A DNA stretch of 49,419 bases from a virus: the IMG/VR virus record IMGVR_UViG_3300025896_000036, positions 1-49,419 of that record. One strand, written 5' to 3'. Within the stretch, counting starts at the first letter, position 1; each line of letters begins with the position of its first letter. Both the position numbers and the translations under genes were made by a program. The notes beneath the pieces were generated by a model, which ran no database searches, was not told the DNA's origin, and saw only the letters and a program-made list of their open reading frames with translations. This document shows, piece by piece, positions 1 through 49,419 of this stretch.

Positions 1-121
1 TTGCGGGGCATAGCCGCCGGGCGCGGGCATTCCGCCCGGTTGCGGGGCATAGCCGCCGGGCGCGGGCATTCCGCCCGGTTGCGGGGCATAGCCGCCGGGT
101 GCAGGCATTCCGTACCCTGCC
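1..121. repeat. 39-bp tandem repeat (left end of window)
   Basis: Two exact 39-bp units at 1-39 and 40-78, followed by a third that diverges after about 20 bases. The same unit fills 49294-49410 plus 9 bases at the right end. The length is a multiple of three, so any copy number keeps the SSB frame open. Exact suffix/prefix overlaps of 9, 48 or 87 bases between the window ends are all possible. Confidence 0.95.
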
Positions 122-3313: not shown

Positions 3314-3738
3314 AGCCGCAAAAATGCCTAGTATCTCACAAACCCGCCCAAGGTTTTTACGGTGATTGCCTTCGGGCTTGTGTTGCCTCAATCCTCAATC
3401 TTGAACCTTTGACGGTGCCGCACTTTTTCCAAGATGGTTGCGGCGCGGTTGAAGGTGAAAAACGCTTGACGGATTTTCTGCGGTCGCAGGGTTTGGGCGA
3501 TTTTCGCGTTTATTACGGTGCGGAACATTCGCTAGACGAAGTTCTTTCAATGATGGAACAGACCGCGCCGAAAGAGTTATTTTACATGCTCTATTGCGCG
3601 ACGGGGCAGGGTGATCATGTTGTGATATGCAAAGGCAACAAAGTTGAACATGATCCGGCTTGGTATATCAACCGGAATTATCAGCCGACAAGCGCGGGCT
3701 ATTGGATTGTTTCGGTGTTTGTAAGATTGGGTGAATAA
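3310..3738 (+). CDS. papain-like / C39-like fold protein
   Basis: 142 residues, start chosen at the ATGA overlap with the preceding gene. Motif order matches a cysteine-protease-like fold seen in many phage small proteins: GDCLRACVASILNLE near residue 20 (candidate catalytic Cys), VPHF, then GDHVVICKG (candidate His), and HDPAWY (candidate Asp). Such proteins are widespread in phages but their substrate is unknown. It could be an inactive structural relative. The stop TAA is directly followed by the methyltransferase ATG, indicating tight coupling. Confidence 0.65.
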   Translation: MKPQKCLVSHKPAQGFYGDCLRACVASILNLEPLTVPHFFQDGCGAVEGEKRLTDFLRSQGLGDFRVYYGAEHSLDEVLSMMEQTAPKELFYMLYCATGQGDHVVICKGNKVEHDPAWYINRNYQPTSAGYWIVSVFVRLGE

Positions 3739-4506
3739 ATGACAAGCTTTGCACTCGGAAATGGCGCAATCTGGAATGGCGACTGCCTGGAATTGATGAA
3801 ATATATTCCTTCGGGTTCCGTTGACATGATTTTGTGTGATTTACCATACGGAACGACGGCTTGCAAATGGGACACAATTATTCCGTTTGAACCGCTATGG
3901 GAACAATATTGGCGCGTTGCAAAACCCAATGCGGCAATTGTTTTGACGGCTTCGCAACCGTTCACAACTGCGTTGATCAGTTCGCAGCTTGATAATTTCA
4001 AATATTGTTGGGTGTGGGTTAAATCTAGTGCAACAGGATTTGTAAACGCAAAAAAACAACCGTTGCGCAAGACGGAAGACGTTTGTATATTCGGAAATGG
4101 TCAAAGCATATACAACCCGCAAAATTTAATTTATGCGCCTAAAAATATTAAAAATGGCAAGTCAACAGGCGGTAAAGTTGTTCAGGGTGAAAATATTGCT
4201 TCTAAAATGGGCGGGTTGAGAACGCCGGGCAACGAATATATTCAGGAATTTACAAATTACCCGAACAACATTTTAGAAGTTAATACGGAACGCGGCTTAC
4301 ACCCCACACAGAAACCCGTTGCACTGTTCGAATACCTGATTAAAACTTACACCAACCCCGGCGAAACCGTCCTAGATAATTGTTCCGGCAGCGGCACAAC
4401 CGCAATTGCAGCGCAACGCACGGGGCGGCGGTTTATCTGCATTGAAAAAGACCCGGTTTATTACATGGGATCAACCGCCCGACTTTGGAAAGAGTTAAAT
4501 TCTTGA
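3739..4506 (+). CDS. beta-class DNA methyltransferase (N6-adenine or N4-cytosine)
   Basis: 255 residues. Catalytic motif IV DLPYGTT at residues 34-40 comes first, then a target-recognition stretch, then HPTQKP at 188-193 and the S-adenosylmethionine motif DNCSGSGTT at 213-221. That order defines the beta class. It transfers a methyl group from SAM to a base amino group; specificity cannot be read from sequence. There is no restriction enzyme gene next to it, so it probably protects phage DNA from host restriction or marks it. The stop overlaps the helicase TTG start (TTGA at 4503). Confidence 0.92.
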   Translation: MTSFALGNGAIWNGDCLELMKYIPSGSVDMILCDLPYGTTACKWDTIIPFEPLWEQYWRVAKPNAAIVLTASQPFTTALISSQLDNFKYCWVWVKSSATGFVNAKKQPLRKTEDVCIFGNGQSIYNPQNLIYAPKNIKNGKSTGGKVVQGENIASKMGGLRTPGNEYIQEFTNYPNNILEVNTERGLHPTQKPVALFEYLIKTYTNPGETVLDNCSGSGTTAIAAQRTGRRFICIEKDPVYYMGSTARLWKELNS

Positions 4507-6173
4507 AAACCCCAAGACCTTATCAAACCAAGCTGAAGCTTGACACTTACGCGGCATGGAACGCGGGCGCGCGGAACGTTCTTGCGGTGTTGCCAACGGG
4601 CGGCGGAAAGTCGGTAATTGTTCAAGACATTGCAACCGATAAGCTGCGCATGGGGCGGCGGCAAGTCGTCATTGCGCATCGGAATGAATTGGTTTCGCAA
4701 CTTTCCGGGCATTTGGCAAGTGCTGAAATCCCGCATCGGATCATTGCGCCGTCAAACATTGTTTCAATGATCATCGCGCAACATCGTGCCGAATTTGGCG
4801 GAAAGTCGTTTGTCAATCAATCGGAACATTCGCCAACAACTGTTAGCGGTATTGACACGCTTTTGTCACGCTCTGATGAATTAAAAGAATGGGCGAAACA
4901 AGTCAACGATTGGACAATTGACGAAGGCCACCACGCGCTTGCAGAAAACAAATGGGGGCGCGGTGCTGCGCTTTTTGTCAATGCTATCGGCTTGGGTGTG
5001 ACCGCAACGCCTAGCCGGGCCGATGGTAAAGGGCTTGGCGCGCATGTTGACGGGCTTTACAACGCAATGACGGTTGGCCCAACCATGCGCGAATTGATTG
5101 ATATAGGGGCGCTGACTGATTACGAATTCGCTTTGCCGTTTAGTGATTTTCAAATTGATGATGGCGCGATAACCGACACGGGCGATTATTCACCAAAGAA
5201 GATGCGCGAAGCGTCTAAACGTTCACATATCACGGGCGATGTAGTCTTAGAATATATCAAACATGCAATCGGCAAACGTGCAATCTGTTTTGCTACAGAT
5301 GTTGAAACCGCCGTCCAGATCGCAGAGAATTTCCGCAAATTTGGAATTGCCGCTGAAGCAGTAAGCGCGAAAACCCCGGCGACAGTACGCGAAGAATTTA
5401 TCAGACGTTTTCGAACGGGCGCAATCACTGTGCTTGTCAACGTTGATTTGTTTGGTGAAGGTTTTGACGTTCCGGCGTGTGAAGTGGTGATCATGGCCCG
5501 GCCAACCGCTTCCCTTGGTGTTTATCTGCAACAGATTGGCCGCGCATTGCGCCCGATGGACGGTAAGCGGGCCGGGCTGATCATTGACCATGTGGGCAAC
5601 TGGAAACGCCATGGCTTTCCTGACAAGCCGCACCACTGGACGCTAGAACGCCGGGAAAAGCGGGCGAAGCGTAAGCCTGACCCTGAAGACATTGAATTAA
5701 CGCGGTGCCTAAATCCGATCTGTGGTAAGCCCTATATTCGCGCCCTGCCGATTTGCCCGCATTGCGGCTTTGCGCCTATTCCTGCCGTTGGGGGGCGCGG
5801 AACGCCTGAACAGGTTGACGGTGATCTGATCTTGCTTGACCGCGACACGCTGGCCCAAATGCGCAAGGATACGCAGCTTGATAGCCCTGCTGCGGTTGCC
5901 AATCGCGTAGCGTTTACGACAGGTTCAAAGAACGCCGGGACAAGTGCGGCAAATGACCAAATTGCCAAGATCGGCGCGCAAACCCGCCTGAGTGACGCGA
6001 TTGCGCAATGGGCGGCTATCCAGCGGATGCGCGGGCGGTCTGATCAGGAAAGCTACAGGCGGTTTTATCTCGCAACCGGGGTTGATGTTTTAACCGCGTT
6101 GGGTAAAGATAAGACAAGGGCCGAATTTGACGAAATGGCCGCCGTTGTAGAAGGGTGGTATAATGACAAGTGA
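4503..6173 (+). CDS. SF2 DEAD/DEAH-box helicase with C-terminal zinc ribbon
   Basis: 556 residues from the TTG at 4503, which overlaps the previous stop as TTGA and has GAAAGAG upstream. Motifs: a PRPYQ Q-motif-like start (4-8), Walker A PTGGGKS (31-37), DEGHH (140-144), TATPSR (168-173), motif VI QQIGRALRP (343-351). Four cysteines (402, 407, 418, 421) form a zinc ribbon. This matches phage ATP-dependent helicases of the RadD/restriction type. The role is probably DNA unwinding in replication or recombination beside the VRR-NUC nuclease that overlaps its 3' end by 11 bases. Confidence 0.9.
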   Translation: MKTPRPYQTKLKLDTYAAWNAGARNVLAVLPTGGGKSVIVQDIATDKLRMGRRQVVIAHRNELVSQLSGHLASAEIPHRIIAPSNIVSMIIAQHRAEFGGKSFVNQSEHSPTTVSGIDTLLSRSDELKEWAKQVNDWTIDEGHHALAENKWGRGAALFVNAIGLGVTATPSRADGKGLGAHVDGLYNAMTVGPTMRELIDIGALTDYEFALPFSDFQIDDGAITDTGDYSPKKMREASKRSHITGDVVLEYIKHAIGKRAICFATDVETAVQIAENFRKFGIAAEAVSAKTPATVREEFIRRFRTGAITVLVNVDLFGEGFDVPACEVVIMARPTASLGVYLQQIGRALRPMDGKRAGLIIDHVGNWKRHGFPDKPHHWTLERREKRAKRKPDPEDIELTRCLNPICGKPYIRALPICPHCGFAPIPAVGGRGTPEQVDGDLILLDRDTLAQMRKDTQLDSPAAVANRVAFTTGSKNAGTSAANDQIAKIGAQTRLSDAIAQWAAIQRMRGRSDQESYRRFYLATGVDVLTALGKDKTRAEFDEMAAVVEGWYNDK

Positions 6174-8001: not shown

Positions 8002-8240
8002 CAGTTTCTTTCTCCGATGGTGCCAACATCCACCATGACGGGCGGGTGACTTGTTCCGGCGATGGTCAATCGAACGGGTTTCCCTGCGTTCAATAGTTCC
8101 AATTCTTCGGCGCTTGGTTGCCAGCAAGAAACCATAATTGGCCCGTGATCAATCATTATTCCGTCTGTAATATGCAACGGTGCATAGCCTTGACTTTCGC
8201 CAAGAACGCGCGTTGTCAGTGGCGTTTCAAAATTCTGCAT
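8001..8240 (-). CDS. conserved phage hypothetical protein (HPPV motif)
   Basis: 79 residues, ATG at 8240 close behind the upstream stop at 8245. The pattern (LHITDGIMIDHGPIMVSCWQ, PSAEELELLNAG, SHPPVMVDVG) matches a short protein common in phage genomes for which I know no function. Longer versions back to 8387 would overlap the upstream gene for no reason. Confidence 0.6.
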   Translation of the reverse strand: MQNFETPLTTRVLGESQGYAPLHITDGIMIDHGPIMVSCWQPSAEELELLNAGKPVRLTIAGTSHPPVMVDVGTIGERN

Positions 8241-8244
8241 CGCG

Positions 8245-8493
8245 TCAATACTCCGAACGTAGAATGACTTCGGGCACATATTCCATATTTGGCGGCGAAA
8301 GATCAGTTGAAACTTCACCTGTTTTGAAAGTGCCGTCTTTCGGGGGAACCAAACAAATACCGCACCAAACATTCGGGTAGCTGGCATGATATGCGGTGAT
8401 CAAATACAATCCGCCTGTTGCCCTTCCTTTCGCCAAAAATGGAAATTTCGGCATCGGCGGCGCGGATGGTTTGGGATATGTGGCGGTAATCAT
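8245..8493 (-). CDS. hypothetical protein
   Basis: 82 residues; ATG at 8493 follows CTCAGGAACC, a usable ribosome site. Proline-rich start (PKPSAPPMPKFPFL) then a YHASYPNVWCGICLVPPKDG segment. No recognised family. First clear gene of the tightly overlapped leftward run 8493-7042. I could not find a convincing promoter directly upstream, so it may share the 9118-9147 promoter. Confidence 0.55.
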   Translation of the reverse strand: MITATYPKPSAPPMPKFPFLAKGRATGGLYLITAYHASYPNVWCGICLVPPKDGTFKTGEVSTDLSPPNMEYVPEVILRSEY

Positions 8494-8568
8494 CGGTTGG
8501 GTTCCTGAGTTTGTGCCTTGCGTTGGCTTCAACGTGCGTTCACTCCACACAACGCAAGGGCTTACCGT

Positions 8569-8700
8569 TTAAATCCGTTGCTGCGGTTGCATACAAGACC
8601 CCTTATCTTGCGCAATTGCAGCGGGTGCGATTTCTGGCAACAGCGGGGGCGGTTGCCCACGAATACGCGCAGCGAACGGCAACTTTCCGACTGATCGCAT
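8569..8700 (-). CDS. possible 43-aa protein
   Basis: ATG at 8700, frame ending 8569, in the space between the 60-bp repeat gene and the run beginning at 8493. The product starts MRSVGKLPFAARIRGQPPPL; no family is recognised. The frame is also open upstream through the repeat region, but there it is only a shadow. The strongest argument is position: it fills what would be a 230-base gap in a compact leftward transcription unit. Confidence 0.35.
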   Translation of the reverse strand: MRSVGKLPFAARIRGQPPPLLPEIAPAAIAQDKGSCMQPQQRI

Positions 8701-8726
8701 GATCAACCAAAAAGAAAGGCATTTGA

Positions 8727-9083
8727 TCAAGCCCGCAGTTTTTTCAAACGGTTGTCGGCAACGAAATAGGTGCAAGCGGCCAACTCGGGCAGGCTCACCA
8801 CGCCGGGCAGGTTGTAGGCAGCGAAATTGGTGCAAGCGGCCAACTCGGGCAGGCTCACCACGCCGGGCAGGTTGTCGGCAGCGAAATGGGTGCAAGCGGC
8901 CAACTCGGGCAGGCTCACCACGCCGGGCAGGTTGTAGGCGCGGAAGGTGGTGCAAGCGGCCAACTCGGGCAGGCTCACCACGCCGGGCAGGTTGCAGGCA
9001 GCGAAATCGGTAATTTTCGAAAAGTCAGGGTCAGTTGCAAGCCAAGCGTCATAAGAGGCTTGTGAGAAAAATTTAACTTTCAT
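8727..9083 (-). CDS. 20-residue repeat protein (LRR-like)
   Basis: 118 residues from ATG at 9083 (AAAGGAAC upstream). A ~28-residue N-terminal segment (MKVKFFSQASYDAWLATDPD) precedes four copies of LPGVVSLPELAACT plus a six-residue variable end (TFRAYN, HFAADN, NFAAYN, YFVADN), and a short basic tail RLKKLRA. Each 20-residue repeat is one 60-bp DNA unit. The Leu/Cys/Asn periodicity resembles a leucine-rich repeat solenoid. Its own promoter lies at 9118-9147; a start at 9119 would fall in that promoter. Role unknown; a binding or decoy surface is speculation. Confidence 0.75.
   Translation of the reverse strand: MKVKFFSQASYDAWLATDPDFSKITDFAACNLPGVVSLPELAACTTFRAYNLPGVVSLPELAACTHFAADNLPGVVSLPELAACTNFAAYNLPGVVSLPELAACTYFVADNRLKKLRA
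8751..8990. repeat. four tandem 60-bp repeats
   Basis: Units at 8751, 8811, 8871 and 8931 with a partial fifth from 8991. In each unit about 40 bases are identical (from GTGCAAGCGG onward), while the first ~19 bases vary. The conserved part encodes the repeat core and the variable part a few residues, so variation is confined to one face of the repeat. Confidence 0.95.
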
Positions 9084-12988: not shown

Positions 12989-13017
12989 ACACTACGCCTT
13001 GCGCGGTTGGTCGTCAA
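12989..13017 (-). promoter_or_regulatory. leftward cassette promoter
   Basis: TTGACG (13017-13012), 17-bp spacer, TAGTGT (12994-12989), followed by a GTGTG/CACAC-flanked segment and a GAAGGAAACGC ribosome site before ATG 12952. The -35 and spacer are inside the 3' end of the upstream gene, and the TAG of the -10 is that gene's stop codon. Confidence 0.8.
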
Positions 13018-14794: not shown

Positions 14795-15457
14795 TCAGTA
14801 TTCGCCGGGCGGCAGATCGTCGGGGCCAGCACCTTCCGGCCATACATCGGGCAGGGTGTAGGGCTGCAAGCCAGGGGGCGGCGGTGCGAACGCGCCGCGC
14901 GCCACGGCATCAGCTTGCGCCTGCGTCATAGTCGCTTGCGGGCTGGACGTGACGGGGGTGTAACGCGGTTTCGTATCGCGTTCAATATGACGGAATGTCT
15001 TGCCGCGAACAGTTTCAAAACCCCTGCGGCCTTTCAAGTGTGAACAAACCATTGAGCGAGTTACACCCAACGACAACGCAACCGCCGAAGAATTCGGGAA
15101 AATATCGCCCGTTTCAATACATTCAACAGGAAGTCTGATAGGCTTCGCATTTGGTGTGTTCGGCGTACCGTCCAAACGATATTGCAAGTTGCAAATCGGT
15201 GAATACTTTTGAACCAATCGAAACGCGGCGCGGTTTGCTTCAAGTTCTGAAATCTGTGTTTCTTCAATGACGGTAAAAATTGCAGTGTCAAACGGGACCA
15301 ACTTTGACCAAGCTTTGTTGCGCCTGGCGTCGGGGAAAGTGGTCAGGTCTGCAAACTTGCAGAAACCAACCCATAAAACAGCATCGGTGTTACGATGTGT
15401 ATAGATTGCCCAATGCTGATCAATGGTCAAAATAGGTGCAAAGATGGTTCCGAACAT
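14795..15457 (-). CDS. GIY-YIG-like / NUMOD1-like DNA-binding protein, paralogue 1
   Basis: 220 residues from ATG 15457 (GAAGGAAAC upstream). N-terminal half: WAIYTHRNTDAVLWVGFCKF, then TFPDARRNKAW, a pattern like degenerate GIY-YIG endonuclease modules. The middle ECIETGDIFPNSSAVALSLG, then SHLKGRRGFETVRGKTFRHI, resembles the NUMOD1 helix-turn-helix of homing endonucleases. The C-terminal ~50 residues are proline-rich and disordered. It is clearly homologous to the divergent gene at 15830. Catalysis is uncertain; the two genes flank the candidate origin, so origin binding or nicking is an attractive guess. Confidence 0.65.
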   Translation of the reverse strand: MFGTIFAPILTIDQHWAIYTHRNTDAVLWVGFCKFADLTTFPDARRNKAWSKLVPFDTAIFTVIEETQISELEANRAAFRLVQKYSPICNLQYRLDGTPNTPNAKPIRLPVECIETGDIFPNSSAVALSLGVTRSMVCSHLKGRRGFETVRGKTFRHIERDTKPRYTPVTSSPQATMTQAQADAVARGAFAPPPPGLQPYTLPDVWPEGAGPDDLPPGEY

Positions 15458-15478
15458 GTTGTTTCCTTCATTTTGTTC

Positions 15479-15507
15479 AGTTAACAACATTTTTCATGTG
15501 AAGTCAA
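15479..15507 (-). promoter_or_regulatory. leftward promoter for paralogue 1
   Basis: TTGACT (15507-15502), 17-bp spacer, TTAACT (15484-15479). The inverted repeat TTGTTcagttAACAA (15474-15488) spans the -10. Confidence 0.6.
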
Positions 15508-15829: not shown

Positions 15830-16297
15830 ATGATGAATATAATTTCCGGCGCTCCATCGGGCTTTTTCGAAAAATGGTGCGCTTACTCGCAACGAACGCC
15901 CGGCGCGGTGGTTTATGTTGGGTTCTGCAAAGCTGCGAAACTTTTGCAGTTTCCAGACGCCCGGCAAAATCGCACCTGGCTGATGCTTTGCCAGCATGAT
16001 CCTTTGTTGATCACAATAGCCGAAGGGTTTTTTGATACTGAAGAAAAGGCGCGGTCGGTCGCGGCTGATCTGATTGCGGCGCATAGCCCGACATGCAATG
16101 TTGCTGAAGATCGCAGGTTGTCGCAAATACAGGGTTTGACACGCGGCCCGGTGATCTGCGAACAGACCCAAGAAACCTTTCCTAGCGCGGCGGCGGCGGC
16201 GCGGGCGGTGGGTGCGAATGCAAGCGCCATGGCGCAACACCTGGCGGGGTCAGCAGGCTATCGCACAGTTAGGGGGATGACCTTTAGACGCGTCTAA
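15830..16297 (+). CDS. GIY-YIG-like / NUMOD1-like DNA-binding protein, paralogue 2
   Basis: 155 residues, ATG ATG start (GGGAAACAAG upstream). It aligns by eye with the gene at 14795-15457 over its whole length: WCAYSQRTPGAVVYVGFCKA, FPDARQNRTW, HSPTCNV, then FPSAAAAARAVGANASAMAQ and GYRTVRGMTFRRV. It lacks the proline-rich tail. The two are transcribed divergently away from the iteron and inverted-repeat region. Its own promoter (15770) and terminator (16298) make it a stand-alone unit. Confidence 0.65.
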   Translation: MMNIISGAPSGFFEKWCAYSQRTPGAVVYVGFCKAAKLLQFPDARQNRTWLMLCQHDPLLITIAEGFFDTEEKARSVAADLIAAHSPTCNVAEDRRLSQIQGLTRGPVICEQTQETFPSAAAAARAVGANASAMAQHLAGSAGYRTVRGMTFRRV

Positions 16298-26184: not shown

Positions 26185-26541
26185 ATGAACGACACTTGCA
26201 AAACCGTCGCCGTCCAAACTGCAAACGGGCCGGTTGATATGAACGAAGCCGATTACACGCCCGACATGGGGCCGTTGGTGGGTTCTGATACCGCGCCGCC
26301 CGCGCCCGCTGATACCGCGCCGCCCGCGCCCGCTGATACCGCGCCGCCCGCGCCCGCTGATACCGCGCCGCCCGCGCCCGCTGATACCGTGCCGCCCGCG
26401 CCGATGCTGGTATCAAAGCAAGGCAGGAAATTCTTCGTTGTGGACGGGCAAGCAAAGCCAATTGACGTTGCAGGAATTGACGTGTCGGGCTACGCTGCTG
26501 AGGCGGATGCTTGGGCCGCTATCATGGCTTTGACCAAGTAA
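26185..26541 (+). CDS. virion-region protein with Pro-Ala octapeptide repeats
   Basis: 118 residues: a short N-terminal segment, five copies of DTAPPAPA (the last variant with Val), then a compact C-terminal domain (VSKQGRKFFVVDGQAKPIDV). Ribosome site AAGGAAAAGGG. The repeat probably forms an extended rigid linker. No family recognised. Confidence 0.6.
   Translation: MNDTCKTVAVQTANGPVDMNEADYTPDMGPLVGSDTAPPAPADTAPPAPADTAPPAPADTAPPAPADTVPPAPMLVSKQGRKFFVVDGQAKPIDVAGIDVSGYAAEADAWAAIMALTK
26287..26406 (+). repeat. five tandem 24-bp repeats
   Basis: Units begin at 26287, 26311, 26335, 26359 and 26383; the first four are identical, the fifth has changes (GTG for GCG, altered end). Encodes the DTAPPAPA linker. 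Confidence 0.92.
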
Positions 26542-26567
26542 GAAATCACAAAACCGCCGGGGGAATT

Positions 26568-29018
26568 ATGGCAGTCACTACACCCACGATTTACGGCGGT
26601 TTTGCTCTACCTGATGGAGTTGCGATTGCATCCGCAAAGGTGCAATTCAAACTTTCGGGGATGGACACACAAAATTCAACAGTTCTCATTCCCTTTGGTG
26701 TAAAAACTTACGATCTGATTGACGGCGAATTGCCAGCGGGTGCAGTTCTTTGGCGCAACTCCGAAGGGCTGCGCAATACGTTTTACACGGTCACGTTGAT
26801 CATCACCGATACAAACGGCATCGAAACTATTCACAAAGTTGGTAAAATCCAGCTTACTGGCAACGCGACAAGTTACGATATCACGTTGCTTTTGCAGGCG
26901 TCTGCCTCAATCGTTTCCGGTGATCAGTTCCATGTTTTGACAGATGATCAATACAATCTTCTGGTAGGTTCCGCAACTATCGCGCAACTGATCACGGCGG
27001 CGGCAGCGGGTGACTTTGACGATTTGCAGCCCGGTTCCGTGGTGTGGGCGGGCGGTTATCCGTTTGTTAAGCAGATTAACGCAAATTATGACGGTCTGCC
27101 GACAGGATTTATCCCGCGTATTCCATCGCCATTTGCGTTTAATGGCTTCGTAGGCGATGGAGTAACCGACGACACGGAAGCCATTCGCAAACTGGCAAAC
27201 TACTGCAATTTGAGCAAAGTTCAACCTGATTTTTCAGGTGTAAAAAAGTTTGCTGTTGATACCAATGCGCGGATTGTTTGGTATCGCGCCCCCGATATGG
27301 CACACGCTCAAATCATTCTGCTGAATGGCGTGTTACCGCCTGAAAACGTTACGATTGCCAATATTAAAACAACGTTCATTATTGAAGACCCGACTACTCC
27401 GGTTGTATCTGGCAACATTACCCCAACGCTTGCCAATATGAAGCGCGGTTCAATGACGCCTTGCAATGATTTCTTTTTTGGCATGGGTTACGCATATTTT
27501 CAATGCAACAACATCAGCGGCCCTTGGATTGCTGGCCGTGACGATACGGACCCTTTGCTTGGTTATCGACAATCATTCTCGGTTGGTCGTTTGGGGCAAG
27601 TTAATTTTCCGCTTACGATTGATTGCAATGCGACAACTTCTATTTATTATCGTTTCCGTGTAAATACAGCAGATGGTAGAACAGTTCTGAAAAACGTAAA
27701 TTGCGACCCGTCGCAATCAAATTGTCTCACTTTGTTTCAGATTTCGCGCAATGAAGTTTCAGTTGAAAACTGTGATTTTCGTTGTGTTGATGGCACCTAT
27801 AACGAAGGTGCGCTCAATCGCGTTATTGCGGTTGATGAATGTTCCGGCTTTACTTCAGATAACATTGACGGAATGGCTTTCGTCAATGATTACGGCGGAA
27901 CATATTTGTTTAATTTTGATCAAGTGGCGGATATTCACCTAAATGATATTCGTGCATTGAACGGTTGGGGCTTTATGGGCTGCAATCATATCAACGGTTT
28001 TTGGCTTACCAACTCGCTAGTTAATCGCTTTGATGTTCATGGTGGCGGGCATAATATGTTCGCGGATAATGTCACCTTTCAAGATATTGGCATTCGCTAC
28101 GGTTGGGGTGGTGGTTGGCTTGTGGCAACAAATTGCGTTGGCATTAATTGCCCGATTATTTCTAGCCGCGATGATTACGGCGGTTATTGGTTTGGTCAAA
28201 TCGTCACCAATGGTACATACCAAACTGGTGATGCCTTTTCTATGGCGGTGGTTTCCATTGGTGGGGCTACAGGAACGCCAATAGGACGATCTGGCCTTGT
28301 CGTACCTTCGGCGCGTTCCATCAGCATTAGCAACGCTGTGCGGGGCGTTACCGATGATAACGAAGCTGTGGAGTTTGTGCCGCTTGAAATCATAACCTCT
28401 GATACAGCGCTTGGGGTGCTGAAGCCCGCTTCTATCGACATAAACAACATTTCATGCGCTAAAGATTGGCGCATGAAAATACAGCTAGATTTGCGCAATA
28501 TGACAAACATTTCCGATCATGGTGAAAATGATACAACCCGGATTACAATAACCAATTGCAAGCCGAGTAATAAGCCGTCTTCGGCTGTTGGTGGAATTTA
28601 CGTTCGCCCCAATCATGCGTCTGGACCAATGGCGGGCTTGCCTGGTGTTTACTTCGTTTTGAACGTCAATGATTGCGACAACACTGCAATTCATACGCGC
28701 GAAAGTGTGCGCGGAACAGTCAACACGGATAACACAAGACTAGCCGCGTTGGCTACGCCAAGCGGTCGCCCTGTCAACGTTCGCGGCGGGGCGCTGATAG
28801 CTAACCCGTTGATCGCGTCCGGTGACACAACTGCTGTTTTGGGTGGCAATGCCATCGGTACGCGATACACGGCAATAGATGGTGTGAGAGTGGATGCGAA
28901 CACCTGGGATTTGTCAAAAGTCATCATGGCAACAGGGGTGCAAATTCCAACAGGTATTTCGCCAACATTGCCAAGCGGTGCAACGCGCGACGATATGTTC
29001 AAAGGATGGATGGTGTAA
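26568..29018 (+). CDS. tailspike/fibre with pectate-lyase-type beta-helix
   Basis: 816 residues from ATG 26568. Residues ~1-150 form a beta-rich N-terminal attachment region (MAVTTPTIYGGFALPDGVAI). Then FVGDGVTDDTEAIRKLANYC marks the start of a right-handed beta-helix typical of tailspikes. The body is Asn/Gly/Asp-rich repeats (VENCDFRCVDGTYN, INGFWLTNSLVNRFDVHGGG). It is likely a surface-polysaccharide-binding or cleaving protein. It is encoded between coat and connector genes rather than at the tail end. Confidence 0.78.
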   Translation: MAVTTPTIYGGFALPDGVAIASAKVQFKLSGMDTQNSTVLIPFGVKTYDLIDGELPAGAVLWRNSEGLRNTFYTVTLIITDTNGIETIHKVGKIQLTGNATSYDITLLLQASASIVSGDQFHVLTDDQYNLLVGSATIAQLITAAAAGDFDDLQPGSVVWAGGYPFVKQINANYDGLPTGFIPRIPSPFAFNGFVGDGVTDDTEAIRKLANYCNLSKVQPDFSGVKKFAVDTNARIVWYRAPDMAHAQIILLNGVLPPENVTIANIKTTFIIEDPTTPVVSGNITPTLANMKRGSMTPCNDFFFGMGYAYFQCNNISGPWIAGRDDTDPLLGYRQSFSVGRLGQVNFPLTIDCNATTSIYYRFRVNTADGRTVLKNVNCDPSQSNCLTLFQISRNEVSVENCDFRCVDGTYNEGALNRVIAVDECSGFTSDNIDGMAFVNDYGGTYLFNFDQVADIHLNDIRALNGWGFMGCNHINGFWLTNSLVNRFDVHGGGHNMFADNVTFQDIGIRYGWGGGWLVATNCVGINCPIISSRDDYGGYWFGQIVTNGTYQTGDAFSMAVVSIGGATGTPIGRSGLVVPSARSISISNAVRGVTDDNEAVEFVPLEIITSDTALGVLKPASIDINNISCAKDWRMKIQLDLRNMTNISDHGENDTTRITITNCKPSNKPSSAVGGIYVRPNHASGPMAGLPGVYFVLNVNDCDNTAIHTRESVRGTVNTDNTRLAALATPSGRPVNVRGGALIANPLIASGDTTAVLGGNAIGTRYTAIDGVRVDANTWDLSKVIMATGVQIPTGISPTLPSGATRDDMFKGWMV

Positions 29019-29574: not shown

Positions 29575-29979
29575 TCACTTGCGACGGAAAACGCGAACCG
29601 ATGCGCCTTCGGGGTCTTTCGTGGCGTCAACGTCAACCGCGAAGAAATCCCTGTCCTGGATCATCACGGGTTCGCTGGTCGGAATGGTCGTCATGTTGCC
29701 GTTGGCGTCTTTCACGTTCTGCGTTTTGAACACAACGTTTCCGGCGTCGTCTTTCTTCGGAACCATGTTGTCGGCCTTGCGGTTTTGCGCCGAAACGATG
29801 CTGGAAAGGCTTTTCGCGGTGCGCCCGATCACGCCGAACGAAGCGCCAACGGCGGTCAGATCGGCAAATGGGAATTGCGATTTCGAACCGCGTTTGTTCT
29901 TGACAACTTCGGGCATCGGAACGGATGCGGTGACGCCAAGAATTTTCATCGTGACGGGGGTTGCGGAGTTTTTTGCCAT
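29575..29979 (-). CDS. moron-like hypothetical protein
   Basis: 134 residues, leftward, between two connector genes. Conserved-looking C terminus DFFAVDVDATKDPEGASVRV then FRRK; N-terminal half basic (VVKNKRGSKSQFPFADLTAV). Similar small phage proteins exist without known function. Own promoter at 30033-30061; the stop faces the 29528 terminator. Confidence 0.65.
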   Translation of the reverse strand: MAKNSATPVTMKILGVTASVPMPEVVKNKRGSKSQFPFADLTAVGASFGVIGRTAKSLSSIVSAQNRKADNMVPKKDDAGNVVFKTQNVKDANGNMTTIPTSEPVMIQDRDFFAVDVDATKDPEGASVRVFRRK

Positions 29980-30441: not shown

Positions 30442-31551
30442 ATGGCACGTTACACGGATGCGACGGCAGAGATTGAAGCCCTGATCGAACAGCTTATCCC
30501 GTCCATTCGTGACGTGTTTTTGACGCTCATTCGGGACGTAACCGACAACGTTGTATTGCAGCAAGTCGTCAAGGCTTTTCAGATGGGTGATCCGGTCGCG
30601 GCGTTCGAAGCCTTGGGGCTATCAGACGCAGCGATGCGCCCCATAACCAAGATGATCGAGGATGCTTACGAAGCGGGCGGCGTGACCACGGGCGGCACGT
30701 TTCCGGCCCGGCTGAAGCTCCCCTTTGGCCCGTCTGTTGTGTTCAGGTTTGACGTTCGGAACAGCCGGGCCGAACAATGGTTGCGCGAAAATTCGGCCCG
30801 GCTGATCACCGAAATTCAAGAGGAAACCCGCGTTGTTGTGCGGAACGTCATGGAAGACGGGATGCGGCGCGGCGTCAACCCGGCGACTTCGGCGCTTGAC
30901 CTGGTGGGCCGCTTGGACGCTAGCGGGCATCGGGTGGGCGGCACCATCGGCTTGACCACTGCGCAGGAAGGTTGGGTGCGTAGTACGCGCGCCGATCTTA
31001 CCACACAAAACCCGCGCTATTTTGATCGGCAATTGCGCGGGAAAAACTTTGACAAGATCGTAAAACGTGCGTTCGACAAAGGCGAACCGTTGCCAGCGGA
31101 AACAGTTGAACGGCTTGTTACGCAATATAAGGCGAATGCGCTACGTTATCGTGGCGAAGTCATCGGGCGAACCGAAGCAATCAAGGCGCTGAATAAAGCA
31201 CAATTTGAGGCAATAAACCAAGCTATTGATATGGGCGCAATCAAGGCTAGCGCCGTGACCCGTGAATGGGATAGCGCCGGGGATTTTCGCGTTAGAGAAA
31301 CGCATCGCCTAATGGACGGTCAAAAGGTCGCGTTTGATCAGCCTTTTAAATTTCCGTTGGGCGGTCTGGCAATGTATCCTGGCGATACAGACCTAAACGC
31401 CCCTGCGTCCGAAACAATTCAATGTCGTTGCCGCGTCAAGATCAAAATTGATTGGCTAGCAGGTGCGGTAGAATACGCGCGCAAATTGCCTGCGGATGAA
31501 TTGGCCGAATTGCGCGGGTTGGCGTTCGCCAAGTTGCCGGGCGAAAAATAG
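30442..31551 (+). CDS. minor head protein, Mu gpF / SPP1 gp7-like
   Basis: 369 residues. The C-terminal signature REWDSAGDFRVRETHRLMDG, then PGDTDLNAPASETIQCRCRV is diagnostic of the Mu F-like/SPP1 gp7 head morphogenesis family. The N-terminal ~240 residues are helical. Present in a few copies inside the capsid and needed for correct head assembly or DNA exit. Confidence 0.85.
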   Translation: MARYTDATAEIEALIEQLIPSIRDVFLTLIRDVTDNVVLQQVVKAFQMGDPVAAFEALGLSDAAMRPITKMIEDAYEAGGVTTGGTFPARLKLPFGPSVVFRFDVRNSRAEQWLRENSARLITEIQEETRVVVRNVMEDGMRRGVNPATSALDLVGRLDASGHRVGGTIGLTTAQEGWVRSTRADLTTQNPRYFDRQLRGKNFDKIVKRAFDKGEPLPAETVERLVTQYKANALRYRGEVIGRTEAIKALNKAQFEAINQAIDMGAIKASAVTREWDSAGDFRVRETHRLMDGQKVAFDQPFKFPLGGLAMYPGDTDLNAPASETIQCRCRVKIKIDWLAGAVEYARKLPADELAELRGLAFAKLPGEK

Positions 31552-31566: not shown

Positions 31567-31833
31567 TTAGGGCATCATCGGAAAAATGTCGTCACCTTTG
31601 AACAGACATTCCGTTTGTTTAGATTTGATCAGCATTCCTCGCTGTTCGGTGGTCAATTCCGCGCCGTCTGTTTCGTATTCGCGCAGTATTCTGCCTTCAC
31701 CGGACTTTCCGCTAGCATAGCTTGCAGTTTCGAAAAACCGAAAACGGTACGCACTCTTGCGACCTTTGCAAATCGCATAAATCCCGGTTACTTTCTCTTT
31801 TCCGTATGCTTCAGCTTGATAAATCAGTTTCAT
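31567..31833 (-). CDS. hypothetical 88-aa protein
   Basis: ATG 31833 overlaps the upstream TGA. MKLIYQAEAYGKEKVTGIYA, basic RKSAYRFRFFET, ends acidic (LFKGDDIFPMMP). Last gene of the cassette from the 32438 promoter. No family recognised. Confidence 0.55.
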   Translation of the reverse strand: MKLIYQAEAYGKEKVTGIYAICKGRKSAYRFRFFETASYASGKSGEGRILREYETDGAELTTEQRGMLIKSKQTECLFKGDDIFPMMP

Positions 31834-32093
31834 TTCGTCGGTTCCTTGCTGATGTTGTATGCGTTGCACACTGCACCAAAACTTGCGACTTTGCAACCGT
31901 TAAACGCTTCGTGATACTCCATTGCAACGAAGCTATTTGCAAAAACGACATACACTTGTCCTTCGTCGTCAATGTGCAACAGTTTGCCGTCAAATGAAAT
32001 CGGGCAATGTGGCATTTTGAACGTTGAAACCATCCGGCCAACTAATGTTGACATAAGAATTTTGGTCGTCTGTGCCTGTTCAACCGTGATCAT
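31830..32093 (-). CDS. hypothetical 87-aa protein
   Basis: MITVEQAQTTKILMSTLVGR, then FDGKLLHIDDEGQVYVVFAN and a Cys-containing end. Preceded by a terminator-like hairpin (32114-32137) and a weak ribosome site, so expression may be reduced relative to the first gene of the cassette. Confidence 0.55.
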   Translation of the reverse strand: MITVEQAQTTKILMSTLVGRMVSTFKMPHCPISFDGKLLHIDDEGQVYVVFANSFVAMEYHEAFNGCKVASFGAVCNAYNISKEPTK

Positions 32094-32113
32094 TTTGCAG
32101 CCCTGATAGAGTA

Positions 32114-32137
32114 AAGCCGGGCCATTATGCCCGGCTT
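32114..32137 (-). terminator. hairpin inside a leftward cassette
   Basis: AAGCCGGGC (32114-32122) and GCCCGGCTT (32129-32137), 6-base loop, between the genes ending 32145 and starting 32093. A near copy of the hairpin at 16298-16321. Likely attenuates the last two genes of this cassette. Confidence 0.65.
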
Positions 32138-32144
32138 GATCGGT

Positions 32145-32387
32145 TCAGTTTGCGCCAAGGGTGGCGCGCAAGGTGCCGTCCGAATTCACACGGAAAACTT
32201 CAACGTATTCCGCTTTATGAACGTTCAACCATTGCCCGGAAATGGTCAAGGCATGGTCAAGATCATCTGCGGCAAATTCACTTTCGCGCCCTTCTTTGCG
32301 CACTTGCACGACAAAATCAAGAACGAAGCCCGAAGCTTCAACAGAGTTGCGAAGCGCAAGACGATCAGCAGGGGAAGCAAAAGACAT
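32145..32387 (-). CDS. hypothetical 80-aa protein
   Basis: MSFASPADRLALRNSVEASG, FVLDFVVQVRKEGRESEFAA, then HKAEYVEVFRVNSDGTLRAT. Alpha/beta pattern; no family recognised. First gene after the 32438 promoter. Confidence 0.6.
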   Translation of the reverse strand: MSFASPADRLALRNSVEASGFVLDFVVQVRKEGRESEFAADDLDHALTISGQWLNVHKAEYVEVFRVNSDGTLRATLGAN

Positions 32388-32437
32388 AGTAAAAAACCTT
32401 TCAGTTTATCGGCAGGATTGCCGTTTTCCTTGCTTAC

Positions 32438-32466
32438 ACACTACATTGAAAGCGATTGGTCGTCAA
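32438..32466 (-). promoter_or_regulatory. leftward cassette promoter inside the vWA gene end
   Basis: TTGACG (32466-32461), 17-bp spacer, TAGTGT (32443-32438). The -35 and spacer encode the last residues of the vWA-like protein and the TAG of the -10 is its stop codon, as at 12989-13017. Confidence 0.82.
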
Positions 32467-33337
32467 GCATTATTCTTAGATTTTTTGGCGTCACAAAGTC
32501 AAACATTTCGCGCGTTGATCCGGTATCGACTTTTTCAAGATCACGCATTTGGATCATGGGAAAATAGAATTCGTTCGGGCCGGGCCGGTGCTGCAAACTG
32601 AAGGCGCTTGCCGGATAGCCTTGATTGCGCCAAATCGTGCGAAGCCGTGCAACCGAACCGACAAGCGCAAACCTGAAGCGCCGTTGAAATGAAGGATGAC
32701 CCATAGCAAAAACTGCATTTGCAAGGTTCAGACGTTCGCCCGCGTTCTTGACTTTCACAGCAGTTTGACAAGCTAATTGTTCGCCGTCAACATCATCTAG
32801 ACAAGTCGTGATCAGGCTGACAATTTCGCAGGAATGGCCGCGATTTTCTAGAATGTCGCAAACTGCGGCGATGATCGCGGCGCGCGTGATCAAAATTTCC
32901 CGATCAATCCCTGCACTCGCTGAATTTTCCAAAAACAGCGTTATCACGCGCTTGCCTTCGGTCTGGACGTTGCGCCGCATGTGGGCCGGGCTGCCAGCGA
33001 GTAACCGCCCAACGTTCACCGATGCGCCCGCGACAGAATGCGTCCTGGCAGGCTTGCGGGGGTATTCGGCGGCAAGATCGGCGGCGATGGCTTCAGCGCG
33101 TTCTAGCCCCTCTTGCCAGCCCGTGCGGGCGGTCAGGATTGCGCTAGTCATGCTGGCCGACCCTGCAAAGCCTGGTGACGCATCCCAACCCGCCCGCGCG
33201 TCTTTGTCGGCAGGCAATGGCATGTTTTCGATATGATCGGTCAAGGCGTCAAGGCTGGAAAAGCCAAAATAAACGGGCGTCCGGTCAAACCGGAACCGCC
33301 CTAGATATTCGTCACTGTCACCGATTGTTAGGGTCAT
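32441..33337 (-). CDS. vWA-like (DUF7192/CobT-like) protein, partner of a MoxR ATPase
   Basis: 298 residues from ATG 33337 (overlap with a 45-aa gene). Layout: an N-terminal ~130 residues with LGRFRFDRTPVYFGFSSLDA, then a vWA-like core beginning KRVITLFLENSASAGIDREI, with ILENRGHSCEIVSLITTCLD as the next strand-helix unit. The metal site that is normally DxSxS reads ENSAS, so the first Asp is lost. vWA proteins are assembled or switched by MoxR ATPases; the ATPase is encoded two genes upstream. I know similar pairs in phages but not their target. Confidence 0.7.
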   Translation of the reverse strand: MTLTIGDSDEYLGRFRFDRTPVYFGFSSLDALTDHIENMPLPADKDARAGWDASPGFAGSASMTSAILTARTGWQEGLERAEAIAADLAAEYPRKPARTHSVAGASVNVGRLLAGSPAHMRRNVQTEGKRVITLFLENSASAGIDREILITRAAIIAAVCDILENRGHSCEIVSLITTCLDDVDGEQLACQTAVKVKNAGERLNLANAVFAMGHPSFQRRFRFALVGSVARLRTIWRNQGYPASAFSLQHRPGPNEFYFPMIQMRDLEKVDTGSTREMFDFVTPKNLRIMLDDQSLSM

Positions 33338-33471
33338 TTCGCCACAAGCGCCTTGACCCAATCAATCGCATGGGTTTCCCCACGTTTGAACGCAATGGCA
33401 ATTTCAAGCGCCTTAAATGCGCTATGCCCTTTGCTGATCAGAAATTTCTGGATTTCGTCTTTGGTTTCCAT
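33334..33471 (-). CDS. 45-aa linker-gene protein
   Basis: METKDEIQKFLISKGHSAFK, then IAFKRGETHAIDWVKALVAK. Helical with mixed charges, ends at an ATGA overlap with the vWA gene and begins after the standard leader GAAGGAAACGC. It is transcribed from the 33510 promoter and so is co-expressed with the vWA protein. Family unknown. Confidence 0.6.
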   Translation of the reverse strand: METKDEIQKFLISKGHSAFKALEIAIAFKRGETHAIDWVKALVAK

Positions 33472-33509
33472 AATCTGCGTTTCCTTCAGTGTGTTGTTTC
33501 GTTACATGC

Positions 33510-33538
33510 ACACTACATTAGTGCCCGGTGGTCGTCAA
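33510..33538 (-). promoter_or_regulatory. leftward cassette promoter between MoxR and vWA genes
   Basis: TTGACG (33538-33533), 17-bp spacer, TAGTGT (33515-33510), spacer and leader nearly identical to the copies at 13756, 16611 and 17272. It allows the 45-aa and vWA genes to be expressed separately from the ATPase. Confidence 0.85.
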
Positions 33539-33541
33539 GTG

Positions 33542-34675
33542 TTATTTCGTGACTTTCCCTCTATCGACTTCAGACATTCCTTTGAACAGATATAGATTTT
33601 CAACGTCGCCACGGGTTAGCCCTGCATTCAAAGCGGCGCTTCCCATGCTGATAGCGCGTGTCGAAACAACATGGCGGATTTTCTTGGCCTGAACCGATTT
33701 CCGTACTTGCCAAACATAGTCAAGCCAATCTTCGCGCCCGTTGCATAAATGGCGTTCAAGCTGCAAATCGTAATCAATTTCCATCGTTGCAAACCGATCA
33801 AGGCTTGCCGCGTCCAATTCATTTCGCCCGATATAAACGCGGTCTGCACCTGTTCCGAAGGTGTTTGCCGTGGCAATCATTCGAAAGTCAGGGTGACGCA
33901 TGACCGGGCGCGGCTGATCAGGAAACGCAGCATAACCGTTCGCAAGTGCAGAGTTCGCGGCAAGCAACGCATTTGCAGACCATGCGTCAATTTCATCAGC
34001 AAGCCAAACGCCACCAAATTCAAAAGCTGTTCGAAACGGGGTGCCGTGATAAATTCCGTTTCCGTCCATAAACCCGGACAATTCGAACGTGTCACCGATT
34101 GCGTTTGTGATGTAAAACGGCAGGTTCAACAATTGCGCGATGGTTTCGCCAATGGTTGTTTTGCCTGACCCTGCCGGGCCAACCATCATTAGCGGATGAT
34201 TTAGCGCGACAATCTTCAGCGCCATTTGGGTGGCGTAGTGTTGAATCCCGCCAACAATCGGCCCAACGAAGCCGGGTGCTGTGACCTGGATTTGACGCGG
34301 CGGCAAAGTGTCAAAAACCTTGCGGGCGGCGTCTTCGTAAATTTGGCGCATTTCCGGCGCTGCAATGTATCGTGCAACTTCGTCGCGAGTTACTTCGCGG
34401 GTTATATCAACGTTGAAGCCCGGAACGTTGACCGCGTTCATAATCTTGACAAAAATTTCAGTCGTCAATTCTAGGGCGTTCCGCGCGTCAACCTTGCTTT
34501 CGGCGTTGCTTTCGTGATACAGGTTCACAAGGTCTTTCGCGGGCATGATATGCACCGACATGGGGTCAAGCCCGGTCAAGATTGCCCATTTGCGAAGGTT
34601 CGAAACGTTTGACGCGGTGGCGATGAATGCCGAAGGTTTGCCAAGTTTTTCAACAATCAATTCAAGTTCGGTCAT
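33542..34675 (-). CDS. MoxR/CobS-type AAA+ ATPase
   Basis: 377 residues. A helical N-terminal ~130 residues lacks known motifs; then Walker A GPAGSGKTT (166-174), Walker B VWLADEID (223-230), sensor-1 RMIATANTFG, and an Arg-finger region ELDAASLDRFATMEIDYD. It is closest in pattern to the MoxR/CobS group, which works as a hexamer with vWA partners in chelatases and chaperones. It lies leftward between the gp7-like head gene and the tail genes, with ATG at 34675 after AACGAG. No metal-chelatase substrate gene is present. Confidence 0.85.
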   Translation of the reverse strand: MTELELIVEKLGKPSAFIATASNVSNLRKWAILTGLDPMSVHIMPAKDLVNLYHESNAESKVDARNALELTTEIFVKIMNAVNVPGFNVDITREVTRDEVARYIAAPEMRQIYEDAARKVFDTLPPRQIQVTAPGFVGPIVGGIQHYATQMALKIVALNHPLMMVGPAGSGKTTIGETIAQLLNLPFYITNAIGDTFELSGFMDGNGIYHGTPFRTAFEFGGVWLADEIDAWSANALLAANSALANGYAAFPDQPRPVMRHPDFRMIATANTFGTGADRVYIGRNELDAASLDRFATMEIDYDLQLERHLCNGREDWLDYVWQVRKSVQAKKIRHVVSTRAISMGSAALNAGLTRGDVENLYLFKGMSEVDRGKVTK

Positions 34676-34751: not shown

Positions 34752-35174
34752 ATGGCTAAAGATTTCACGGCGCAAGTTTCCGCTATCGTTTTGCGGCACA
34801 AGGCGCTTGCGGATGCGGTCGCGCGCGAAAGCATTGGTGATCTAATCGAGGAAATGCAGACGCCAAAGGGCAAAGGCGGTTCAATGCCTCTTGATACCGG
34901 GTTTCTTCGGGCGTCCGGTCAAGTGTCGTTTTCCGGTATGCCAACCGGGCCAATTCGCCCGCCTGAAGACGCAGAACCGGGCAGTATCCCCTATATGCCA
35001 GACGTTGCAACAGCGCAACTTGCGGGGCTGGAAACCGGGCAAAAGGTGTTTTTCGGTTGGACGGCGATTTACGCGCGCCGGCAGAATTTCTATAACGGTT
35101 TTCGTGATAAGGCGTTGCAAAATTGGCAAAATATCGTCAATAACGTTGTGCGGCGGCTGGCAAAAAGGGTCTGA
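34752..35174 (+). CDS. HK97 gp10-like neck/tail completion protein
   Basis: 140 residues. SMPLDTGFLRASGQVSFSGM is the hallmark of the HK97 gp10-like family, with a helical N terminus (VLRHKALADAVARESIGDLI) and a C-terminal helix. Acts at the head-tail joint. Starts the tail gene block after the opposing MoxR-vWA cassette. Confidence 0.75.
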   Translation: MAKDFTAQVSAIVLRHKALADAVARESIGDLIEEMQTPKGKGGSMPLDTGFLRASGQVSFSGMPTGPIRPPEDAEPGSIPYMPDVATAQLAGLETGQKVFFGWTAIYARRQNFYNGFRDKALQNWQNIVNNVVRRLAKRV

Positions 35175-49202: not shown

Positions 49203-49419
49203 TCATGCCAGCCGCAGGCGCATAACCCTGCATTGGTTGCTGTTGCCCTGCATTCTGGACGAAATCAGGCGCGGGCGCGGGCATTCCGCCCGGTTGCGGG
49301 GCATAGCCGCCGGGCGCGGGCATTCCGCCCGGTTGCGGGGCATAGCCGCCGGGCGCGGGCATTCCGCCCGGTTGCGGGGCATAGCCGCCGGGCGCGGGCA
49401 TTCCGCCCGGTTGCGGGGC
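49177..49419 (-). CDS. ssDNA-binding protein, C-terminal part (continues from position 741-1)
   Basis: Continuation of the DUF2815-like gene. Three full 13-residue repeats of the QPGGMPAPGGYAP type, then PAPDFVQNAGQQQPMQGYAP and AAGMTPGQMPPR, stop TGA at 49179-49177. Typical SSBs carry a flexible tail ending in acidic residues; this one is proline/glycine-rich and neutral to basic at its end. Depending on the true repeat number, the full protein is roughly 310-335 residues. Confidence 0.8.
   Translation of the reverse strand, partial: APQPGGMPAPGGYAPQPGGMPAPGGYAPQPGGMPAPGGYAPQPGGMPAPAPDFVQNAGQQQPMQGYAPAAGMTPGQMPPR
49294..49419. repeat. 39-bp tandem repeat (right end of window)
   Basis: Three exact units at 49294-49332, 49333-49371 and 49372-49410 plus 9 bases. 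Identical to the units at 1-78. A degenerate half-unit precedes at 49270-49293. Confidence 0.95.

Follow-up and report, generated by a model that had tools for sequence, protein, structure and literature searches.

The genome of the virus represented by IMG/VR record IMGVR_UViG_3300025896_000036 carries, in the middle of a rightward virion operon, leftward genes for a MoxR-type AAA+ ATPase and a vWA-like protein, which raises the question of what such a pair does and whether it serves the virion at all. The window analysed here is the whole virus record (49,419 bases); two other contigs carry the same virus, with 99.98-100% identity across the shared stretch.

Organization of the leftward island

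As the preliminary description of this DNA had it, the genes for the ATPase, a 45-aa protein and the vWA-like protein run leftward inside the rightward virion operon. They are flanked by a MuF gene and a neck gene, both on the plus strand (Table 1). The coordinates given there for the three-gene module (32441-34675) hold, but the island reaches further and consists of the ATPase, the 45-aa ORF, the 298-aa vWA-like protein and three small ORFs, all leftward, with a second promoter. The module had also been regarded as inserted between head and tail genes. The location stands, whereas a recent insertion does not: because the island occupies the same place in 5 of the 5 members of the virus group, its position is an old one, ancestral to the group. 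For the vWA-like gene, the mechanical ORF list gives 32441-33361 with a TTG start; the ATG start, which overlaps the stop codon of the 45-aa gene as ATGA, is the better choice, and the two genes are predicted to be translationally coupled through this overlap.

Table 1 Features of the leftward island and its flanks (window coordinates).
Feature	Position	Strand	Remarks
MuF head morphogenesis gene	30442-31551	+	left flank of island
Leftward island	31567-34675	-	between MuF-type head morphogenesis gene and neck gene
Small ORF, 109 aa	31567-31896	-	PHROG 18899 (unknown); own start may be internal
Small ORF, 87 aa	31830-32093	-	no family
Small ORF, 80 aa	32145-32387	-	downstream in island; no significant family
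Second island cassette promoter	32466-32438	-	overlaps 3' end of DUF7192 gene, precedes next small ORF
DUF7192 / PHROG 1909 vWA-like partner, 298 aa	32441-33337	-	ATG start at 33337; without MIDAS Asp
45-aa ORF	33334-33471	-	GAAGGA-type Shine-Dalgarno; without family match
Cassette promoter TTGACG-17-TAGTGT	33538-33510	-	upstream of 45-aa and DUF7192 genes, between ATPase and partner
MoxR-type AAA+ ATPase, 377 aa	33542-34675	-	AAA_5, PHROG 249
Neck/tail-completion protein gene	34752-35174	+	right flank of island

Elsewhere in the virion operon there is a further leftward gene (29575-29979, minus strand; DUF7303, E 2e-7), and relatives also bear a reversed gene at that place (P106B_17). Amid the head genes, positions 26511-29018 (plus strand) encode an 835-aa possible tailspike or depolymerase-like protein without a Pfam match; the corresponding region of relatives encodes an SGNH esterase.

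The ATPase and its partner

The ATPase matches AAA_5 (E 7e-9) and PHROG 249 (E 1e-63) and contains Walker A (GPAGSGKTT), Walker B (ADE), sensor 1 (N271), an arginine finger (R294) and sensor 2 (R340); G166, G171, K172, D227, E228, N271, R294 and R340 are invariant among 15 aligned sequences. Its predicted model has a helix-2 beta-hairpin insert (helix 197-200, strands 202-203 and 209-210, helix 213-220), with CbbQ and NorQ as the top structural matches (Z 18-20), whereas the nearest solved structures by sequence are midasin AAA modules (E 3e-18) and CobS. The match to the CobS model TIGR01650 is weak (29 bits vs. a cut-off of 558.55). The MoxR class originally assigned to the protein is borne out by the invariant catalytic residues and the CbbQ/NorQ-like model, by which it is an intact MoxR-type (clade 7) AAA+ ATPase.

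The partner belongs to DUF7192 (PF23822; 149.9 bits, curated cut-off 27) and PHROG 1909. Our literature search found no paper naming DUF7192, and a sequence search of solved structures yielded no relative; outside viruses, nothing was found in a plasmid search or in pattern scans of genome contigs, which required exact short motifs. A structure predicted from 16 aligned relatives (pLDDT 83.5, pTM 0.83) was compared with solved structures, and all of the first eight places (Z 6.1-7.5) were taken by NorD-VWA entries (9QHD, 9QH6, 9QHE, 9QH8) or Rea1/MDN1 MIDAS entries, with Z 7.5 for the NorD VWA domain and 7.1 for Rea1-MIDAS; the next row has Z 5.0, and other vWA domains come after NorD and Rea1. 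Foldseek alone also placed NorD-VWA first, weakly (E 0.012, low TM-scores), and among viral models the named strong matches were to DUF7192 and then to a CobT subunit (E 4e-4). RavA, ViaA and BchD were absent from the structural matches listed, which is uninformative on kinship. The preliminary description had offered assignment of the partner to another fold as grounds for its refutation; with NorD VWA and Rea1-MIDAS leading the structural matches, the prediction supports a vWA fold of the AAA+-coupled kind, at a Z of 7.5 that is middling, yet consistent over eight entries. The strongest evidence for a MoxR/vWA pair comes from the two models taken together, because, although made independently, they lead to the partner chains of a single solved complex.

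The missing MIDAS site

In the DUF7192 protein, residues 137-141 read ENSAS. Across the 16 aligned sequences the first MIDAS position (137) is occupied by N in six, E in four, S in three, A in two and H in one, and by D in none; judged at this position, the DxSxS-T-D motif is absent from all 16. On this alignment, the partner is a vWA-like domain without MIDAS rather than a canonical MIDAS-vWA protein. The preliminary description had the metal site losing its first Asp, and the residue is indeed absent, but the absence is not a local lesion: since none of the 16 relatives has it, the loss is a trait of the whole family, and it looks ancestral to DUF7192.

NorD proteins mutated in MIDAS retain NorQ binding, yet the target is no longer matured (PMC9976466). 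Because the site that NorD needs for its target, and not for NorQ, is missing family-wide, DUF7192 could by analogy keep contact with its motor but would have to hold a client by another surface. A family-wide loss of MIDAS in AAA+-coupled vWA proteins provides a natural test of which adaptor surface grips the client, a question that extends to NorD, CbbO and midasin.

Co-occurrence of the pair in viruses

A survey of co-occurrence had been proposed from the outset, on the premise that the pair should stay together in relatives. The ATPase gene lies directly upstream of the DUF7192 gene, on the same strand, in 23 of the 23 distinct viral loci for which both sides are available, namely this virus, X2_24, P106B, Netyap, fRuSau02, G15, MCE-2014, LP-124, Octobien14, Acinetobacter phage YMC13/03/R2096 and 13 uncultured viruses. 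The phage hosts include Rhizobium, Mycobacterium, Gordonia, Staphylococcus, Listeria and Acinetobacter, and among Staphylococcus phages 236 records have the ATPase and 236 have DUF7192. The distance matrices of the two proteins are correlated (Mantel r = 0.81, P = 1e-4), also after thinning of close relatives (r = 0.41, P = 0.02), a correlation that reflects the common descent of the viruses as well. The two-gene remodelling machine, as we read it, thus recurs in unrelated phages of many bacteria.

No conserved third gene was found beside the pair outside close relatives. The 45-aa gene was rejected as a third component, the genes between ATPase and DUF7192 being different in each lineage; the gene had been correctly recognized, but it is not kept in relatives and probably is not a core part of the module. 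In mycobacteriophage Netyap there are two DUF7192 paralogues per ATPase, the second (gp127; 8032-8883 of its locus) being solitary, without an adjoining ATPase gene, and most Mycobacterium records among the matches listed likewise have two DUF7192 places and one ATPase. Because the laboratory strain Mycobacterium smegmatis mc2 155 is a host for cluster L mycobacteriophages, the function of the pair can be tested directly.

The genomic context varies. The pair stands beside DNA polymerase, helicase or replication genes in some viruses (two loci named), near the terminase in others (three loci named), and within arrays of small hypothetical genes in Netyap and Octobien14, the latter with an ArdA-like antirestriction gene in the same context. 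Across these other phages there is no constant link to morphogenesis genes.

Promoters and regulation

Seven near-identical promoters of the form TTGACGACCA-N13-TANNNT are present in the window, all of them on the minus strand and none on the plus strand, whereas mononucleotide shuffles gave a mean of 0 sites. They start at 13017, 13784, 16639, 17300, 18324, 32466 and 33538, and those outside the island precede small leftward genes at 13-18 kb. Each is part of a promoter-leader cassette (TTGACGACCA...TAGTGTGTAT-taacgaaacaacacactgaaggaaacg), and three of the seven are identical across 29 nt; with every cassette placed before a small unrelated gene, the set looks like one regulon built by promoter copying. 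The extra cassette promoter that had been noted between the ATPase and its partner is one of these (Table 1). Directly upstream of the ATPase gene no cassette promoter was found, and a TAGTGT-like -10 element there lacks a good -35.

In Kayvirus, the ATPase gene of the pair is preceded by TTGACA-17-TATAAT, a promoter annotated in the record, whereas the late promoters of Kayvirus are without a -35 box (PMC7698491, PMC9241854). Because of this contrast, and of the seven leftward cassettes, regulation of the pair is probably separate from that of the late virion operon in both viruses; the promoter types point to early or middle expression.

A proposed finger-in-pore remodelling machine

The fold class, the catalytic residues, the loss of MIDAS and the adjacency of the two genes come directly from sequence or prediction. 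Going beyond them, we consider it probable that the pair is a MoxR/vWA remodelling machine of the finger-in-pore type, which grips its client independently of MIDAS and is regulated apart from the late operon. In NorQ hexamers, a finger of NorD (residues 403-448) sits in the pore, and the vWA domain is turned on ATP hydrolysis (PMC13036017). The DUF7192 model (75-296) aligns with NorD 382-638, which puts the NorD finger opposite residues ~94-126, a correspondence read from chain order and aligned ranges rather than from superposition. This segment has pLDDT <50 in the single-chain model, and within it G104, G115, P117 and M120 show little or no variation. Its conservation and its place, matching that of the NorD finger, are what suggest the proposed mechanism. 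The ATPase would form a hexameric ring; DUF7192 residues ~94-126, just before the first vWA strand, would serve as the pore finger; and ATP hydrolysis would turn or pull the vWA domain, distorting the bound protein. The client would be held elsewhere than at the MIDAS position, with the conserved N-terminal region (FxSL...GWxEG) as the leading candidate. Given that the pair is probably not under late control, a host complex, or else a complex for phage replication or takeover, is a likelier client than a virion component. One further likeness was dropped, as GRxLAG of DUF7192 lies in the finger segment, whereas GRxLL/I of NorQ lies in the helix-2 insert and not in the NorD finger.

Comparison with known systems

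NorQ/NorD, a MoxR AAA+ protein with a VWA activator of nitric oxide reductase, ranks first or joint first among the structural matches of each protein (the ATPase with NorQ, along with CbbQ, and DUF7192 with the NorD VWA domain), and the DUF7192 segment before the first vWA strand sits where NorD has its pore finger. However, DUF7192 has neither the MIDAS Asp nor the large N-terminal domain and linker of NorD, the phage has no nitric oxide reductase, and sequence identity is about 8-18%. Midasin AAA modules are the best PDB sequence matches of the ATPase and DUF7192 aligns to Rea1-MIDAS, but Rea1/midasin is one giant eukaryotic polypeptide with an intact MIDAS, whereas here two small separate proteins are encoded. 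RavA/ViaA likewise consists of two separate proteins, a MoxR ATPase and its vWA partner (PMC10585395). The MoxR/CobS-like ATPases of jumbo phages and cyanophages, paired with CobT-like vWA-metallopeptidases, also make up a viral two-gene unit with a related ATPase (PHROG 249), but their partner is ~700 aa long, with a metallopeptidase motif and an intact MIDAS, as in Syn1_136, and DUF7192 has neither. Syn1_136 itself (3424-5559 of its locus), annotated as 'peptidase', contains HEVGH, DWSGS and TDGD and is, by these motifs, a CobT-like metallopeptidase-vWA protein beside the cyanophage 'CobS'. Cobaltochelatase CobS/CobT is similar in joining AAA+ and vWA components and in its weak sequence match to the ATPase; it differs in that the ATPase falls far below the CobS cut-off, the record has no CobT or CobN, and DUF7192 is without MIDAS.

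Alternative explanations

The place of the island between head and neck genes, conserved throughout the virus group, would suit a chaperone for remodelling head, neck or tail proteins as virions assemble, and there is precedent for such a role, proposed for jumbo-phage MoxR-vWA pairs and in the Acidianus two-tailed virus (PMC7824862). We nevertheless regard it as rather unlikely, as the island opposes the virion operon in orientation and contains promoters of its own, and the contexts of the pair elsewhere, next to replication genes, terminase or small-gene arrays, speak against a fixed tie to virion assembly. The Kayvirus ATPase was detected by mass spectrometry in purified particles, but the particle list includes many non-structural proteins, for which the authors suspect carry-over (PMC5618024). 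A helper of cobaltochelatase, i.e. a viral CobST working with host CobN for cobalamin, has been proposed for viral cobST of haloarchaeal and other tailed viruses (PMC8651126) and could be read from the matches of the ATPase to PHROG 249 ('porphyrin biosynthesis') and, weakly, to TIGR01650. We reject this identity and consider the role extremely improbable: the CobS score is far too low, the whole virus record has no match to CobT (PF06213) or CobN (PF02514), in line with the absence of chelatase genes noted earlier, and the partner is short and without MIDAS, whereas the cyanophage CobS-like ATPase has a different one (711 aa, with HEVGH, an intact DWSGS and TDGD). The same pair is also present in phages of Staphylococcus aureus, a species that to our knowledge does not synthesize cobalamin.

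The remaining readings concern conflict. MoxR-vWA pairs are the core of bacterial conflict systems (PMC12839542; see also PMC7159879), such that the pair might be a phage-borne defence module directed at competitors. This is very unlikely, given that a third component and a peptidase effector complete the bacterial systems (PMC12839542), whereas the pair lacks a conserved neighbour and the partner (298 aa, without HExxH) has no effector domain. One version of the finger-in-pore reading, whereby the ring takes apart or disables a host complex, be it one of defence or an enzyme assembly, early in infection, appears possible, if still on the doubtful side. It fits the separate set of sigma-70-type promoters that other small leftward genes have as well, the consensus promoter in Kayvirus, the small-gene context with an ArdA-like gene in Octobien14, and the two paralogues per ATPase in Netyap, as expected for interchangeable adaptors; on the other hand, the partner has no match among defence or anti-defence models, and the PADLOC matches of the ATPase are weak and to generic AAA+ proteins, so that known defence families were rejected for the pair. 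Because of the mycobacteriophage paralogues, one might tentatively go further, to a conjecture that we hold with little confidence: an AAA+ machine whose vWA adaptors are interchangeable and metal-independent would act early in infection to unfold a specific host complex or take it apart, the motor being common to phages of widely different hosts and the adaptor varying.

Viral pairs and their annotation

Viral MoxR-vWA pairs are already known (PMC7824862, PMC8651126, PMC7911831). The preliminary description knew of no described function, which holds for DUF7192, but not for other viral MoxR-vWA pairs, for which functions have been proposed, including a role in tail development for the pair of the Acidianus two-tailed virus and one in virion assembly for those of jumbo phages (PMC7824862). 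Within the searches made, what is new is DUF7192 as a MoxR partner, the absence of MIDAS throughout the family, and a class separate from the CobT-like proteins. In many phage records, including those of Listeria phages and cyanophages, ATPases of this family carry the label 'porphyrin biosynthesis' or CobS and can therefore be counted among auxiliary metabolic genes; where the ATPase is linked to DUF7192, the evidence points instead to a protein-remodelling pair with its own partner.

Other features of the window

Two related-looking ORFs in opposite orientation (14795-15490, minus strand; 15830-16297, plus strand) have GIY-YIG/NUMOD-like sequence features and no Pfam match, and are possibly homing endonucleases. 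An identical 39-nt tandem array occupies both ends of the window (1-112 and 49272-49419), with an 87-nt exact terminal repeat; despite its linear classification, the record probably represents a complete genome, assembled as a circle and opened inside the tandem repeat.
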